Assembly (NCBI GenBank): GCA_016234855.1
Contig: JACRNO010000034.1
Coordinates: forward strand, 1-42,862
Reading direction: 5' to 3'
Origin: Deltaproteobacteria bacterium
GTDB taxonomy: Bacteria; Desulfobacterota; GWC2-55-46
DNA: 42,862 nt
The position numbers and the translations under genes are program-made. Under the pieces are notes generated by a model that did no database searches, was not told the DNA's origin, and was given only the letters and a program-made list of their open reading frames with translations. This document shows positions 35,300-42,862 of the stretch, in pieces (within the stretch, counting starts at the first letter, position 1; every line of letters starts with the position of its first letter).

Positions 35300-35710
35300 C
35301 TATTTGCCGTGCTCCTTCACCTTGATACGCGCCTTGCTAAGCTCGTATGCCTCTATGGTCGCCTGATACTCAGGGTCGTCTGCAGGCAGAGTCTTGAGCG
35401 CCTCTTCGAGCTTTGCAAGGGCCGCCTTGACGGTCTCAAGCTTTATATCGGCGCTAAACTCCCCGGAATCGACGAGCAGGATGGTCCTGTCCGCTGAGAC
35501 CTCGGCATATCCCTTGCCTATGGCGATATGGCCCGTCTCGCCGCCCTTCTTATATACGACCTCGCCGGGCTTTAGCACCGTTACAAAAGCCGTATGTCCC
35601 GGCAGAACGCCGAACTCGCCGAGCGCACCCGGGGCCGTAAACTCGCTTATCTCGGTAGAGAGCAGGCGTCTGCCCGGTGTAACGACTTCAAGTAAAAAGG
35701 TATTTGACAT
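35300..35710 (-). CDS. atpC: ATP synthase subunit epsilon
   Basis: 136 residues. Part of the F1 central stalk, coupling proton flow to catalysis and able to inhibit ATP hydrolysis. The N-terminal beta barrel (FLLEVVTPGRRLLSTEISEF, GEFGVLPGHTAFVT, ILLVDSGEFSADI) and the C-terminal helical hairpin (VKAALAKLEEALKTL, YELSKARIKVKEH) are both present. Last gene of the operon. The start codon directly follows a GATAACC-type repeat rather than a normal Shine-Dalgarno sequence; only a weak GGAAA is upstream. Confidence 0.94.
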   Translation of the reverse strand: MSNTFLLEVVTPGRRLLSTEISEFTAPGALGEFGVLPGHTAFVTVLKPGEVVYKKGGETGHIAIGKGYAEVSADRTILLVDSGEFSADIKLETVKAALAKLEEALKTLPADDPEYQATIEAYELSKARIKVKEHGK

Positions 35711-35881: not shown

Positions 35882-37306
<1,425 letters not shown>

Positions 37307-37711: not shown

Positions 37712-38596
37712 CTATTTCAACGCCTCGGCGCCGCCGATGATCTCCATCAGTTCCTTGGTAATCGCGGCCTGGCGCAGCCTGTTATACTTGAGCGTAAGCC
37801 CGCCTATCATGGCGGACGCGTTCTTCGAGGCCGAGTCCATGGACGTCATACGGGAGCCGTGCTCGCTCGCCGAAGACTCCAGAAGCGCCCTGAAGACCTG
37901 CACCTCCACGTACTTAGGAAGGAGCGCCGCGAGCACCTCGGCCTTGGACGGCTCGAACTTCGCCTCAATGCCGCCTGTCTCCTCGGCGGGAGCCTGTGCG
38001 CCTTCTGCCAGCGCCGGAGCTGCCGCGCTTATAGGCAGCAGCCGCTGTATCGCCGGCTTCTGCGTGAGCGCGGACTTAAACTCGCTGTAGACGAGATTTA
38101 CCTCGTCGATCTCGTTGTTAAGGTACATGCCCATGACCAGCGTGGCGATCTCAACGGCCGAGGCATAGGACGGCCTGGCGCCGCCGACCGGCCTTTCCTT
38201 GAATATGTTGTACTTCCTCTTCTTGAAGTATTCTATGCCGCGCTTGCCTATGAAGTAATAGCTCAGCTCGGCGTCGACGGACTCCCTGACGTACCTCTCG
38301 ACCGTCCTTATCATAGAGGCGTTGAAGCTGCCGCAAAGACCCCTGTCCGAGGTCATGACGATAAGGGCTACCCTGTTGCCCTCGTGCCTCGCAAGGAGCG
38401 GGTGGCTGTCAGCGGCCGTGGCCGAGGCCAGGGACATGGTCAGCTCGTTTATCTTCTCGGCATACGGCCGCGCCGCGACGATCTCGTCCTGCGCCCTCTT
38501 GAGCTTCGCGGCCGAGACCATCTTCATGGCCTTGGTTATCTGCTGCGTGTTCTTTACGCTCTTTATGCGGCGTTTTATATCTTTAAGTGATGGCAT
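37712..38596 (-). CDS. atpG: ATP synthase subunit gamma
   Basis: 294 residues. Rotating central shaft of F1. Conserved ends: SLKDIKRRIKSVKNTQQITK then MKMVSAAKLKRAQ at the N-terminus, and ASKNASAMIGGLTLKYNRLRQAAITKELMEIIGG at the C-terminus, split by a Rossmann-like domain with MTSDRGLCGSFN. An Ala/Pro/Glu-rich insertion of about 25 residues near 195-220 (ALAEGAQAPAEETGG) is longer than usual. The start codon follows an R3 repeat with only GGAAACC upstream. Confidence 0.96.
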   Translation of the reverse strand: MPSLKDIKRRIKSVKNTQQITKAMKMVSAAKLKRAQDEIVAARPYAEKINELTMSLASATAADSHPLLARHEGNRVALIVMTSDRGLCGSFNASMIRTVERYVRESVDAELSYYFIGKRGIEYFKKRKYNIFKERPVGGARPSYASAVEIATLVMGMYLNNEIDEVNLVYSEFKSALTQKPAIQRLLPISAAAPALAEGAQAPAEETGGIEAKFEPSKAEVLAALLPKYVEVQVFRALLESSASEHGSRMTSMDSASKNASAMIGGLTLKYNRLRQAAITKELMEIIGGAEALK

Positions 38597-38707: not shown

Positions 38708-40222
38708 CTACTTCCCTTCGACGATAAAGAGGCCCTTGAACTCGTCGAGCGCCTTGATAAGGTTGGTCTTTATCTCGCCGTCAAGGCTCTTCTTCTCGCG
38801 GATGGCGTCGAGCACGTCCGAGCGGCGCGTCTCGAAGAACGACAGCAGCTCTTCCTCATATCTCTTGAGCGCGCTGACCGGGTACGCGTCCACGTAACCG
38901 TTGGTGGCCGCGAAGATGACGACGACCTGCTTTTCAACCGGCATGGGCTTATACTGGCCCTGCTTGAGTATTTCCACGAGCCTGCCGCCGCGCGCAAGCT
39001 GCTTCTGCGTCGCCGGGTCGAGGTCGCTGCCGAACTGCGCGAAGGCGGCCAACTCCCTGAACTGCGCCAACTCGAGGCGCAGCGTGCCGGCGACCGACTT
39101 CATCGCCTTTATCTGCGCGCTGCCGCCGACGCGGGAGACCGACAGACCGACGTTGATGGCCGGCCTGATGCCCGAATAGAAGAGGTCGGTCTCAAGATAT
39201 ATCTGCCCGTCCGTGATGGAGATGACGTTAGTCGGGATATAGGCCGAGACGTCGCCCGCCTGAGTCTCGATGACCGGAAGCGCGGTAAGAGAGCCGCCGC
39301 CGAGCTCGTCGGAGAGCTTGGCCGCGCGCTCAAGAAGCCTTGAATGGAGATAGAAGACGTCTCCGGGATATGCCTCGCGGCCCGGGGGCCTTCTGAGAAG
39401 GAGCGAGAGCTGCCTGTACGCGACCGCGTGCTTTGAAAGGTCGTCGTATACTATGAGCGCGTGCTGGCCGTTGTCCCTGAAGTACTCGCCCATGGCGCAG
39501 CCCGAATAAGGCGCAATGAACTGCAGCGGCGCCGGGCTTGCAGCGGTCGCGGCGACGACCGTCGTGTAATCCATCGCCCCTGACTGACGGAGCTTCTCGA
39601 CTATCTGCGCGACCGTGGACTGCTTCTGGCCTATGGCGACGTAAATGCACCAGACGTTAAGTCCCTTCTGGTTGATGATGGTATCGAGCGCGACGGCGGT
39701 CTTTCCGGTCTGACGGTCGCCGATGATGAGCTCTCTTTGCCCCCTGCCGATGGGTATCATGCCGTCGATGGCCTTGATGCCCGTCTGGAGAGGCTCCTTG
39801 ACCGATTTTCTGGCGACTATGCCCGGGGCCTTTATCTCGACGCGCCGCATTTCCTTGGCGTCTATCGGGCCCTTGTTGTCGATGGGCTGGCCCAGCGCGT
39901 TGACGACCCTGCCCGCAAGGGCCGGGCCGACCGGGACCTCGACAATCCTGCCGGTCCTCTTGACGGTATCGCCTTCCTTTATGGTATAATCCCCGCCGAA
40001 GATGGCCGCGCCGACGTTGTCTTCCTCAAGGTTCAAGACCATGCCGTAGAGCCCGCCCGGAAACTCGAGGAGTTCGCCCGCGAGCGCCTTCTCAAGTCCG
40101 TAAATCCTCGCTATGCCGTCGCCGACGGATATGACGGTGCCTATCTCTTTTACGTCTATCTCTTTCTCAAAGCCCTTTATCTGGGTCTTGATGAGTTGGC
40201 TTATCTCCTCAACCTTTATCAT
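38708..40222 (-). CDS. atpA: ATP synthase subunit alpha
   Basis: 504 residues, the non-catalytic nucleotide-binding F1 subunit. Walker [40 protein letters not shown], and the arginine-finger region [32 protein letters not shown] are all typical. The N-terminal [12 protein letters not shown] and [14 protein letters not shown] are normal. AAGGGGTG, overlapping the atpH stop, serves as ribosome binding site, and the start lies two bases after that stop. Confidence 0.98.
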
Positions 40223-40224
40223 CT

Positions 40225-40770
40225 TCAGGCCACCCCTTGTAGGATTTTTTCTTTCATCAGCTCGAGCTGGGTCTTGAGGCTCCCGTCGAGTATGGTATTG
40301 TCCAACTTGATAACAAGCCCGCCTATAAGGGAGGGATTTTTGGCGAACGTCGCAATCACCTCGCGCCCTGTAGAGGCCTTTATCTTATCCTTGACCGCAT
40401 TGAGCGCGTCCGGGGAAAGCTCGACAGGGGATTCCACCACGATGCGGATCCGCCCGGCAAGACCGTCTTCAAGCCTTGAATAGGCCGCCGCGATCTCGTC
40501 AAGGAGCCTTATCTTCCGCGTCTCCATCAGTATGAAAAGCAGCCTGGTGACGGCGCTCGAGAACTTGGCGCCCTCGGCAACCTTCGTCAAAAGGACGCGG
40601 CGCTCCTCTATCCTGTACATCGGGTTCAGAAGCACCTTATACAACTCCGGCGCCCCCTGAAAGATGCCCACGGCGGTGCGGAGCTCCTTGCCGTAATTCA
40701 CGTAGGCGCCGTCCTCGGTGCCTACGGCTATGAGCGCCTTTGCGTATCTTCTTGCCACGGATGTTTTCAA
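40225..40770 (-). CDS. atpH: ATP synthase subunit delta (OSCP)
   Basis: 181 residues. Links the peripheral stalk to the top of F1. N-terminal helical domain with [13 protein letters not shown] and, in the middle, [20 protein letters not shown]-terminal [24 protein letters not shown], the most conserved family stretch. Start is a TTG at 40770 with AGAGGTG six bases upstream. Confidence 0.94.
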
Positions 40771-40880: not shown

Positions 40881-41897
40881 CTATTTGCGGATGCCCGACT
40901 TGATACCCTCGGTCTTGTTGCCCCCGGCGCTCAGGTCTTTGAGATAGGCCTTTACGAGCCTGTCATGGTCCTCGCCCTTAAGCCCGGCCACAAGCATCTC
41001 TTCGGCCATTGACGCGGCAAGCACCGCGGCCTCTCTGCGAAGCTCGATTCTGGCCTTCTTGACTTCCTGTTCCGCCGTAAACCTGGCCTGGTCCTTAATC
41101 CTTTGCGCGGCGGCCGAAGCCTCGGCCAGCAGTCTTGCGCTCTCGGCCTCGCCCTCAAGCCTGAGTTCGTTATGCACGTTTACGACGGACGCCTCGAGCA
41201 TGGCGACCTTCGCCTGATACTCCGCGTATTTTCTATCCGCGGCGGCCTTGGCCTCCACCGCGTCCTTTATCGCCTGCTCAATATCCATGCCCCTCTTGGA
41301 GAGCATGCCCTTGATAACGTACTTCCATACGCAGCCGATGCCTATGACGAGGATGACGAAGTTCACAATCTTCCAGAGCATCCCGCTGCCGCCCTCTTCG
41401 TGTCCGCCGCCCTCGGTCTCCGCGAAACCGAGCGCCGGAAGGGACAGGCAGGCCAGAAGCACGACTATGCCCATGACCTTTCTATCGAGTATCTTCTCGG
41501 CCATCTGCGAGCCAAGGGCCTTCGCCTCGGCCTTGAGCATGACCATGGCCGAGGCCTTGTTCTTCTCAAGCGCAGTCTTCATAACGCCCAACTCGCGGCT
41601 TGCCGCGCCGCGAGCGGCCTCGATAATCTCTTTTTCTCTGGCCACGGACTCAAGGCGGCGCTTTGCGCGCTCCTCGTTGCCCTTTATGGCCGCGTCTTTA
41701 AGCCTCTTCTCGTAAGCCGCAAGGCCGTCGGCAATCACCCTGTCATACTCCTGCGCCTTTCTCAGGTTGCCGCCTATCTTCTCGTCCCTCTCCTTGAGCG
41801 CCTTGATGGCCGGCGTAAAAAGAAACCTGCTCAGTATCGGCATAAGCACAAGAAAACCGATTATCTGCCACAATACCGTAAGATTTATATCAAGCAT
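40881..41897 (-). CDS. atpF: Fused ATP synthase subunits b' and b
   Basis: 338 residues in one frame. Residues 1-141 are a complete b' subunit: membrane helix LTVLWQIIGFLVLMPILSRF, TPAIKALKERDEKI, a long coiled coil, and the usual C-terminal AEKILDRKV. At residue 142 (41474) a second subunit begins, MGIVVLLACLSLPALGFAET, which looks like the signal-peptide-like start of a b subunit, followed by GGGHEEGGSG, membrane helix WKIVNFVILVIGIGCVWKYV and a second coiled coil with a typical end. In related bacteria these are two genes. The joint has GAAAGG just before ATG, which may be a leftover ribosome binding site. It forms the peripheral stalk with atpH. Confidence 0.9.
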   Translation of the reverse strand: MLDINLTVLWQIIGFLVLMPILSRFLFTPAIKALKERDEKIGGNLRKAQEYDRVIADGLAAYEKRLKDAAIKGNEERAKRRLESVAREKEIIEAARGAASRELGVMKTALEKNKASAMVMLKAEAKALGSQMAEKILDRKVMGIVVLLACLSLPALGFAETEGGGHEEGGSGMLWKIVNFVILVIGIGCVWKYVIKGMLSKRGMDIEQAIKDAVEAKAAADRKYAEYQAKVAMLEASVVNVHNELRLEGEAESARLLAEASAAAQRIKDQARFTAEQEVKKARIELRREAAVLAASMAEEMLVAGLKGEDHDRLVKAYLKDLSAGGNKTEGIKSGIRK

Positions 41898-42190: not shown

Positions 42191-42520
42191 CTACTTCTTT
42201 TTCTTCTTCACGGATTTTTTTGGCGCGGACTTGGCGACCGGTTTTGCCGCGGTCTTTTTCTTTGCCTTGAGCGCGTCGCACTCCTTGCGAGCGGCGTCCC
42301 TCTCGGCCGTAAGGTTCGCGACCTGCGTGTTGAGATCGGCAACGTCCTTCTCAAAGGTCGCGACCTGCGTCTCGAGCTCGCCGGTATGCGCCGTCAGGGT
42401 CGCAACCTGAGCCTTGAGCTGCTCGTTCTCCTTCTTTATCTCCTGCCCGCAACCCGCCGTAAAAAGGACTACGGCAAATACGACGCCCAGCAACCCCAGC
42501 TTCTTCATCATCTTTTTCAT
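42191..42520 (-). CDS. Small coiled-coil lipoprotein
   Basis: About 109 residues from the ATG at 42520; an ATG three codons later (42511) has better spacing to the AAGGGGAG site. Lipoprotein signal peptide with lipobox LFTAGC, cut before Cys. The mature part is a heptad-type coiled coil with recurring units (QLKAQVATLTAHTGELETQV, DLNTQVANLTAERDAARKE), as in Lpp and related murein lipoproteins, and a Lys/Ala/Pro-rich tail (KPVAKSAPKKSVKKKKK). The basic tail may bind peptidoglycan or nucleic acid. It has its own terminator. The exact family is not known to me. Confidence 0.75.
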   Translation of the reverse strand: MKKMMKKLGLLGVVFAVVLFTAGCGQEIKKENEQLKAQVATLTAHTGELETQVATFEKDVADLNTQVANLTAERDAARKECDALKAKKKTAAKPVAKSAPKKSVKKKKK

Positions 42521-42637
42521 GCTCCCCTTGTTAGTTTGGTATAATTCCGCGGCTTGCGCGGCCATGCATTAATATGCCAGAAAAACGGCGAGGTTGCAAC
42601 ATCAAGAAGGACGCCTCCGTCATGGCGGATGCCATCT

Positions 42638-42862
42638 GGGTAACGTCAAGAATTTTGTGTCAGTGAGAAAAGGGTAGCGGTGCCTTGTTTCTTGTTTTCG
42701 TAAGTAAATACCGCGAATAGTTTTCTTTCGATGCTGGTTTTGTCGCTGAAGACTCCCATAGGTCTGGTTCGTCGTCTTACTTCCCTGAACCTTCTCTCTA
42801 TGGCGTTGGTGGTTCTTGTGGCCTTCCGCGTTTCCTCGTCCTTGAACCGGAAGAAGGCGAGA
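42638..42862 (-). mobile_element. Right end of a second IS256-family insertion sequence, inverted
   Basis: Mirror image of 1-140: the sequence from 42638 to 42777 is the reverse complement of 140 to 1 with two mismatches (one gives I to K in the transposase, one is silent). The element continues past the window edge. The inner boundary is GGGTAACG at 42638. Confidence 0.8.
42646..42862 (-). CDS. IS256-family transposase, C-terminal fragment
   Basis: 72 complete codons to a TGA at 42648-42646. Reads FFRFKDEETRKATRTTNAIE, then RRFREVRRRTRPMGVF and on to SLTQNS. TTNAIERRFREVRRRTRPMG is a clear signature of Mutator/IS256 transposases. Partial because of the window edge, with no sign of a lesion in the visible part. 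Confidence 0.88.
   Translation of the reverse strand, partial: LAFFRFKDEETRKATRTTNAIERRFREVRRRTRPMGVFSDKTSIERKLFAVFTYENKKQGTATLFSLTQNS

Follow-up and report, generated by a model that had tools for sequence, protein, structure and literature searches.

A fused b'-b ATP synthase gene with a signal-peptide-like joint: a probable two-subunit precursor in an order of Desulfobacterota

Related subunit pairs, fusions, and cleaved precursors

Among the closest described counterparts of the gene reported here are the AtpF' and AtpF pairs (subunits b' and b of the ATP synthase peripheral stalk) of sister orders, cyanobacteria, and chloroplasts, which comprise the same two subunits in the same gene order. 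There they are encoded by two genes, whereas here they form a single open frame in which the stop, the start, and the leader between them have been lost. The b subunit of the sister orders shares with the fused b both an N-terminal signal peptide and a Gly/His/Glu-rich tail on the outside of the membrane; in chloroplasts, too, an N-terminal presequence is removed from subunit I (b). The closest working parallel for the arrangement as a whole comes from a different complex. FbcH of Bradyrhizobium japonicum is a cytochrome b/cytochrome c1 precursor which is split by signal peptidase at an internal signal sequence, a case of two membrane-complex subunits encoded in one frame and separated within it. 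The FbcH proteins are unrelated to b' and b, however, and the left-hand product of FbcH is a multi-helix membrane protein on which a leftover tail is therefore likely harmless, whereas b' needs a free cytoplasmic C terminus.

Natural fusions within ATP synthase itself have been described as well. A b-delta fusion (AtpFH) is found in mycobacteria and Gordonia (PMC5709465) and, like the b'-b gene, unites stalk genes that are neighbors in the operon. AtpFH joins b to delta, whereas in the fusion described here a membrane segment connects b' with b and delta is separate; because delta is soluble, AtpFH needs no extra membrane crossing and no cut. A delta-alpha fusion in Acidaminococcus fermentans, found from its operon, is likewise a natural fusion of two ATP synthase subunits, but these subunits are soluble, the product stays one chain, and it is proposed to alter stalk number (PMC12229609). 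Cutting of a membrane segment by signal peptidase and then by a site-2 protease, as we propose below, is known from the anti-sigma factor RsiV, whose cytoplasmic part is released when the site-2 protease RasP acts after signal peptidase; site-2 proteases also clear remnant signal peptides (PMC9044953). The cutting of RsiV serves regulated signaling, whereas constitutive production of two subunits is proposed here. The ancient b/b' duplication is treated in a broad ATP synthase survey, whose passages on it mention no fusion (PMC4154653). In the literature searched, which covered few subscription papers, we found no published b'-b fusion; the fusions reported are b-delta and delta-alpha.

The fused gene and its distribution

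The stretch of DNA analyzed here (the window, 42,862 nucleotides) belongs to a draft genome of 95 contigs whose named near relatives are groundwater MAGs labeled Deltaproteobacteria. The preliminary description of this window had reported two stalk subunits within one 338-residue frame. Its coordinates are right, and the Pfam profile PF00430 (ATP-synt_B) matches the frame in two stretches, whose combined 89.6 bits exceed the cut-off of 28. The strand, which had not been given, is minus: the frame reads from 41897 to 40881, b' first and then b, with no stop between them (Table 1). Taken singly, each half consists of one N-terminal membrane helix and a long cytoplasmic helix, as judged by alignment and by helices predicted with low model confidence. 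The genes that follow place the frame in an F-type operon; delta and alpha were identified with Pfam, and gamma, beta, and epsilon were identified by reading. Subunits a and c were not seen in the examined part of the window. A whole-genome profile search returned no PF00430 match in the window genome besides the two stretches of the fused gene.

Table 1. Positions of the fused gene, its parts, and the ATP synthase genes that follow it in the window
Feature	Position	Strand	Description
Fused b'-b gene	40881..41897	-	Open frame, 338 codons plus stop; two PF00430 stretches, E 2.4e-25
Subunit b' (residues 1-140)	41478..41897	-	PF00430 1-131 over residues 6-136; N-terminal membrane helix at about residues 6-26, then stalk helix up to the conserved C-terminal AEKILDRK
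Joint (residues 141-159)	41421..41477	-	Former signal-peptide core of b, as judged by alignment; Pro at -6, small residue at -3, Ala at -1
Predicted signal peptidase I cut A159/E160	41418..41423	-	Conserved site; just before a predicted non-helical stretch, residues 159-170 (low-confidence model)
Predicted mature subunit b (residues 160-338)	40884..41420	-	Second PF00430 stretch at 40992-41378; conserved W175, N179, F180; Gly/His/Glu-rich outside N terminus, membrane helix at about residues 174-194, then stalk helix
Delta/OSCP subunit	40225..40770	-	Next gene downstream of the fused gene; PF00213, E 1.5e-38; separate 181-aa gene
ATP synthase alpha subunit	38708..40222	-	Same operon; PF00006 etc.
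ATP synthase gamma subunit	37712..38596	-	Same operon; recognized from translated sequence
ATP synthase beta subunit	35882..37303	-	Same operon; recognized from translated sequence
ATP synthase epsilon subunit	35300..35710	-	Same operon; recognized from translated sequence

The b half encoded in the window ends in LSAGGNKTEGIKSGIRK (40884-40931, minus strand, residues 323-338) and runs about 14 residues beyond the LRLN-type end of 42 relatives; from the sequences, this longer C terminus looks like a recent change. Two further minus-strand frames lie between the fused gene and the window end. One (42191-42565) encodes a protein of 124 aa that begins like a lipoprotein (AGCGQE), is rich in heptads in its middle, and ends in a Lys-rich tail; Pfam gave only weak coiled-coil matches for it. 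The other (42620-42862) runs off the window end and, judged by reading, resembles the C-terminal region of an IS256-type transposase (NAIERRFREVRRRTRPMGVF).

The fused gene is a property of the window's order. It is present in 42 of the order's 48 genomes, as 43 copies from seven families, and every copy is one open frame; separate b' and b genes were seen in none of the 43. The preliminary description had raised the possibility that close relatives carry two genes with a stop at this point. Among the 59 relatives searched, however, each member of the window's genus, family, or order that has the gene has it as one open frame running across both halves. Ten genomes from the same class but other orders carry b' and b as two separate genes. 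Phylogenetically, a fully supported branch (100/99) separates the 43 fused copies from 8 split ones. When 395 genomes from the phylum were sampled, the only fused copies among the matches listed are 14, all from the window's order; weak scores, where fused copies are not expected, are all that these matches omit. Outside the order, b' and b adjoin among the matches listed in this sample, sometimes in frame with a single stop between them, and no fused b'-b gene appears outside the order among the matches listed in the class and phylum samples.

Within the order, the frame behaves as one coding sequence. dN/dS among close pairs is 0.13 for each of the two halves and 0.19 for the joint, indicating that translation continues in this frame through the joint and that the joint is under purifying selection. 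We also considered a second, separate b gene encoded elsewhere and rejected this option: no genome of the order has another PF00430 gene over the family cut-off, and the fused gene must therefore supply both stalk strands.

Two irregularities were observed in the order. One genome (G034) has two differing fused copies (L040 and L043, at C12:19332-20306 and C113:9306-10283); the bin may contain two strains, or the gene may truly be duplicated. Four members with 90-100% completeness (G009, G043, G044, and G046) have no b/b' gene at all, possibly because the F-type ATP synthase has been lost or because of gaps in the assemblies.

The joint and its cut site

A hydrophobic, signal-peptide-like joint with an LGFA-E site had been noted in the preliminary description and is indeed present; we place it at residues 141-159, with the site after A159 and the sequence across it reading PALGFA/ETEGGG (slashes mark sites). 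Comparison with the sister orders indicates where this segment came from. There, b' ends in AEKILERKVA and a stop, and the separate b begins within a few bases of the b' end with a basic leader and a hydrophobic core, then AFA/AEEGGHEGG; this region aligns to the joint. The fused b' ends at the same place as the separate b' genes of the class, and the fused protein is without the stop, the start, and the basic leader, the place of the leader being occupied by the Arg-Lys end of b'. We infer from these alignments that the joint is b's own ancestral signal peptide, with the Arg/Lys end of b' in place of its basic leader. Descent from a signal peptide also explains the topology, because the signal peptide always placed the N terminus of b outside.

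In seven split relatives (L048 and L051-L056), the b leader is built of repeated KFQ/KFKFQ-like units (DNA type AAATTTCAAATTTCAAATTTC), which on sequence grounds suggests the spread of a small tandem repeat into the signal peptide.

To describe the site across the order we used columns of an alignment that was built regardless of any motif; a separate list of cut sites was picked by a motif-favoring rule, which is why the pattern is judged from the aligned columns. Among 42 aligned copies, residue 159 (-1) is Ala in 40 and Gly in 2; residue 157 (-3) is Ala in 25, Val in 6, Gly in 4, Ser in 4, Leu in 2, and Cys in 1; and residue 154 (-6) is Pro in 37 and Ala in 5. Residue 158 (-2) varies freely and can even be charged. 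As read from these columns, the -1, -3, and -6 positions display the classic signal peptidase I pattern. Basic residues stand directly before a hydrophobic core of about 10-15 residues, as in a signal peptide: residue 139 is Arg in 40 copies and Lys in 2, residue 140 is Lys in 23 and Arg in 3, and 17-23 residues separate residue 140 from the cut. The core itself is among the less conserved parts of the protein (within-group identity of 0.36, versus 0.48-0.60 in most of both halves); its hydrophobic letters drift while the -1/-3 site is kept in all copies.

Stalk geometry, proposed processing, and alternatives

The b' half is a complete subunit. Its profile aligns from 2 to 137 with residues 84-219 of the spinach chloroplast b' chain (6fkf_p, 222 aa), within three residues of the end of that chain and hence over the full length of b', and the resemblance of its C-terminal motif to the free b' counterpart (cross-group identity of 0.50) equals that of the best-kept parts of the protein. 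In E. coli, whose complex measures 232 Å, the stalk coiled coil accounts for 212 Å (PMC5214741), and the end of b' must therefore lie well away from the membrane; in Bacillus PS3 the coiled coil reaches the upper F1 face and binds delta (PMC12229609). By simple arithmetic (1.5 Å per residue), the approximately 110 helix residues past the b' membrane helix span about 165 Å. The joint follows the b' C terminus at once, and there are no linker residues leading back toward the membrane. With a full-length b' and no linker, an uncut chain does not fit the stalk geometry, because the F1 end of b' would have to drop to the membrane. Structure prediction, used for helix boundaries only (five input sequences; mean pLDDT of 64 and pTM of 0.24), gave an unbroken helix over residues 6-151 (about 146 residues), a non-helical stretch at 159-170, and a second helix at 171-305.

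We consider it probable that the gene encodes a two-subunit polyprotein which is cut by signal peptidase I and whose b' part is then trimmed by an intramembrane protease. A precursor cut by signal peptidase was one of three options in the preliminary description, and it emerges as the best supported of them, as the -1/-3 residues are kept and the b subunit of split relatives has the same signal peptide. Such a precursor would supply both peripheral-stalk subunits of the F-type ATP synthase at 1:1. b' would insert with its N terminus outside and its long helix in the cytoplasm, and its basic C terminus (K135, R139, and K140) would serve as the n-region for the hydrophobic joint, which would enter the membrane with its C-terminal end outside. 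Signal peptidase I would then cut on the outer face, likely after A159, and free b with its N terminus outside and its helix inside, the same arrangement as that of a separately encoded b with its own signal peptide. The core of the signal peptide, still attached to b', would be an N-in, C-out hydrophobic tail of the kind cleared by site-2 proteases, and its removal by an RseP-type site-2 protease would allow b' to reach the F1 top and bind delta. This second cut and its protease are plausible in view of the stalk geometry. The preliminary description had recognized neither the descent of the joint from b's signal peptide nor the hydrophobic tail that cutting leaves on b' and that calls for a second cut.

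Candidates for both proteases were sought in the genomes. Signal peptidase I was found in 40 of the 48 genomes of the order; none was found in the window assembly (G000) or in the sister genome (G001), and LepA was likewise found in neither of these genomes, which represent the window's genus. In relatives, lepB sits in the arrangement lepA-lepB-xerC-hslV-hslU-argB. The contig of the window genome that carries hslU (C34) begins inside hslV, just short of the place where relatives have xerC-lepB-lepA, and lepB of the window genome thus likely falls in an assembly gap. Loss of signal peptidase I from the genus is therefore the less likely explanation. The window genome also encodes an RseP-like M50 protease with an HELGH motif, which by analogy could be a candidate for removal of the b' tail.

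The same evidence bears on how else the fused chain might function. The preliminary description had suggested a working three-helix stalk protein; on this reading, the chain would never be cut, would form both stalk strands, and would keep its middle helix permanently in the membrane to return the chain to the outside. The topology of this suggestion holds (b' with its N terminus out, a return helix, then b with its N terminus out), the hydrophobic joint is present in every copy, and the mycobacterial b-delta fusion stays intact and has been solved as one chain (7jg5_d and 9vkp_d). Its geometry does not hold: a full-length b', with a C-terminal motif unchanged relative to free b', puts its C terminus at the F1 top with zero residues before the joint. 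Moreover, a permanent helix has no need of Pro at -6, a small residue at -3, and Ala at -1, and the hydrophobic stretch ahead of the Pro is only about 12-15 residues long. We regard an uncut chain as unlikely. Although the cut site might conceivably be a relic, its upkeep over such divergence argues against this. It is distinctly unlikely that processing stops halfway, with signal peptidase freeing b while b' keeps its membrane-held hydrophobic tail and bends back in an unusual stalk. Such partial cutting requires just the well-supported first cut, yet it would tie the b' C terminus to the membrane despite the conserved F1-end motif, and b' is predicted, at low confidence, to be one unbroken helix of about 146 residues.

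The sequence GAAAGG lies upstream of an ATG at codon 142 in the window, as the preliminary description had pointed out, and b might initiate there, the fusion being mere read-through. The start is not conserved, however (a start codon falls at codons 140-144 in 7 of 43 copies, and sister species L004 has none), so that separate initiation of b is not supported; b' alone would in any case still be impossible, as there is no stop. We give internal initiation very little credence. We also rejected a programmed frameshift that would terminate b': the first stop in the +1 frame often lies close to the joint, but its position varies, and off-frame stops (27) do not exceed the synonymous-codon expectation (30.7 +/- 2.7), leaving no frameshift signal. 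Finally, a stop or a base might have been lost between two ordinary genes through a sequencing or assembly error, a concern raised in the preliminary description and one to which a 95-contig draft is open. The identical fused frame nevertheless recurs in 43 copies from 42 assemblies, among them a single-contig genome (G006), which makes assembly error untenable, and purifying selection acts across the joint. The chance of an artifact is negligible.

If the chain is cut, as we favor, the gene would be a rare bacterial polyprotein outside viruses, one that yields two subunits of a core energy machine, and it would tie the assembly of ATP synthase to the action of signal peptidase and of an intramembrane protease. 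Stalk geometry is also put to a natural test by the fused gene: unless the chain is cut, the accepted picture of b' reaching to the F1 top needs revision for this lineage. Annotation pipelines would tend to call b'-b proteins a single b subunit. For the order as a whole, we see roughly even prospects that the stalk is made from a housekeeping polyprotein cut twice before assembly, by signal peptidase I on the outside and then by an intramembrane protease, in which case ATP synthase biogenesis would depend on signal-peptide processing and the b':b ratio would be fixed by the gene.
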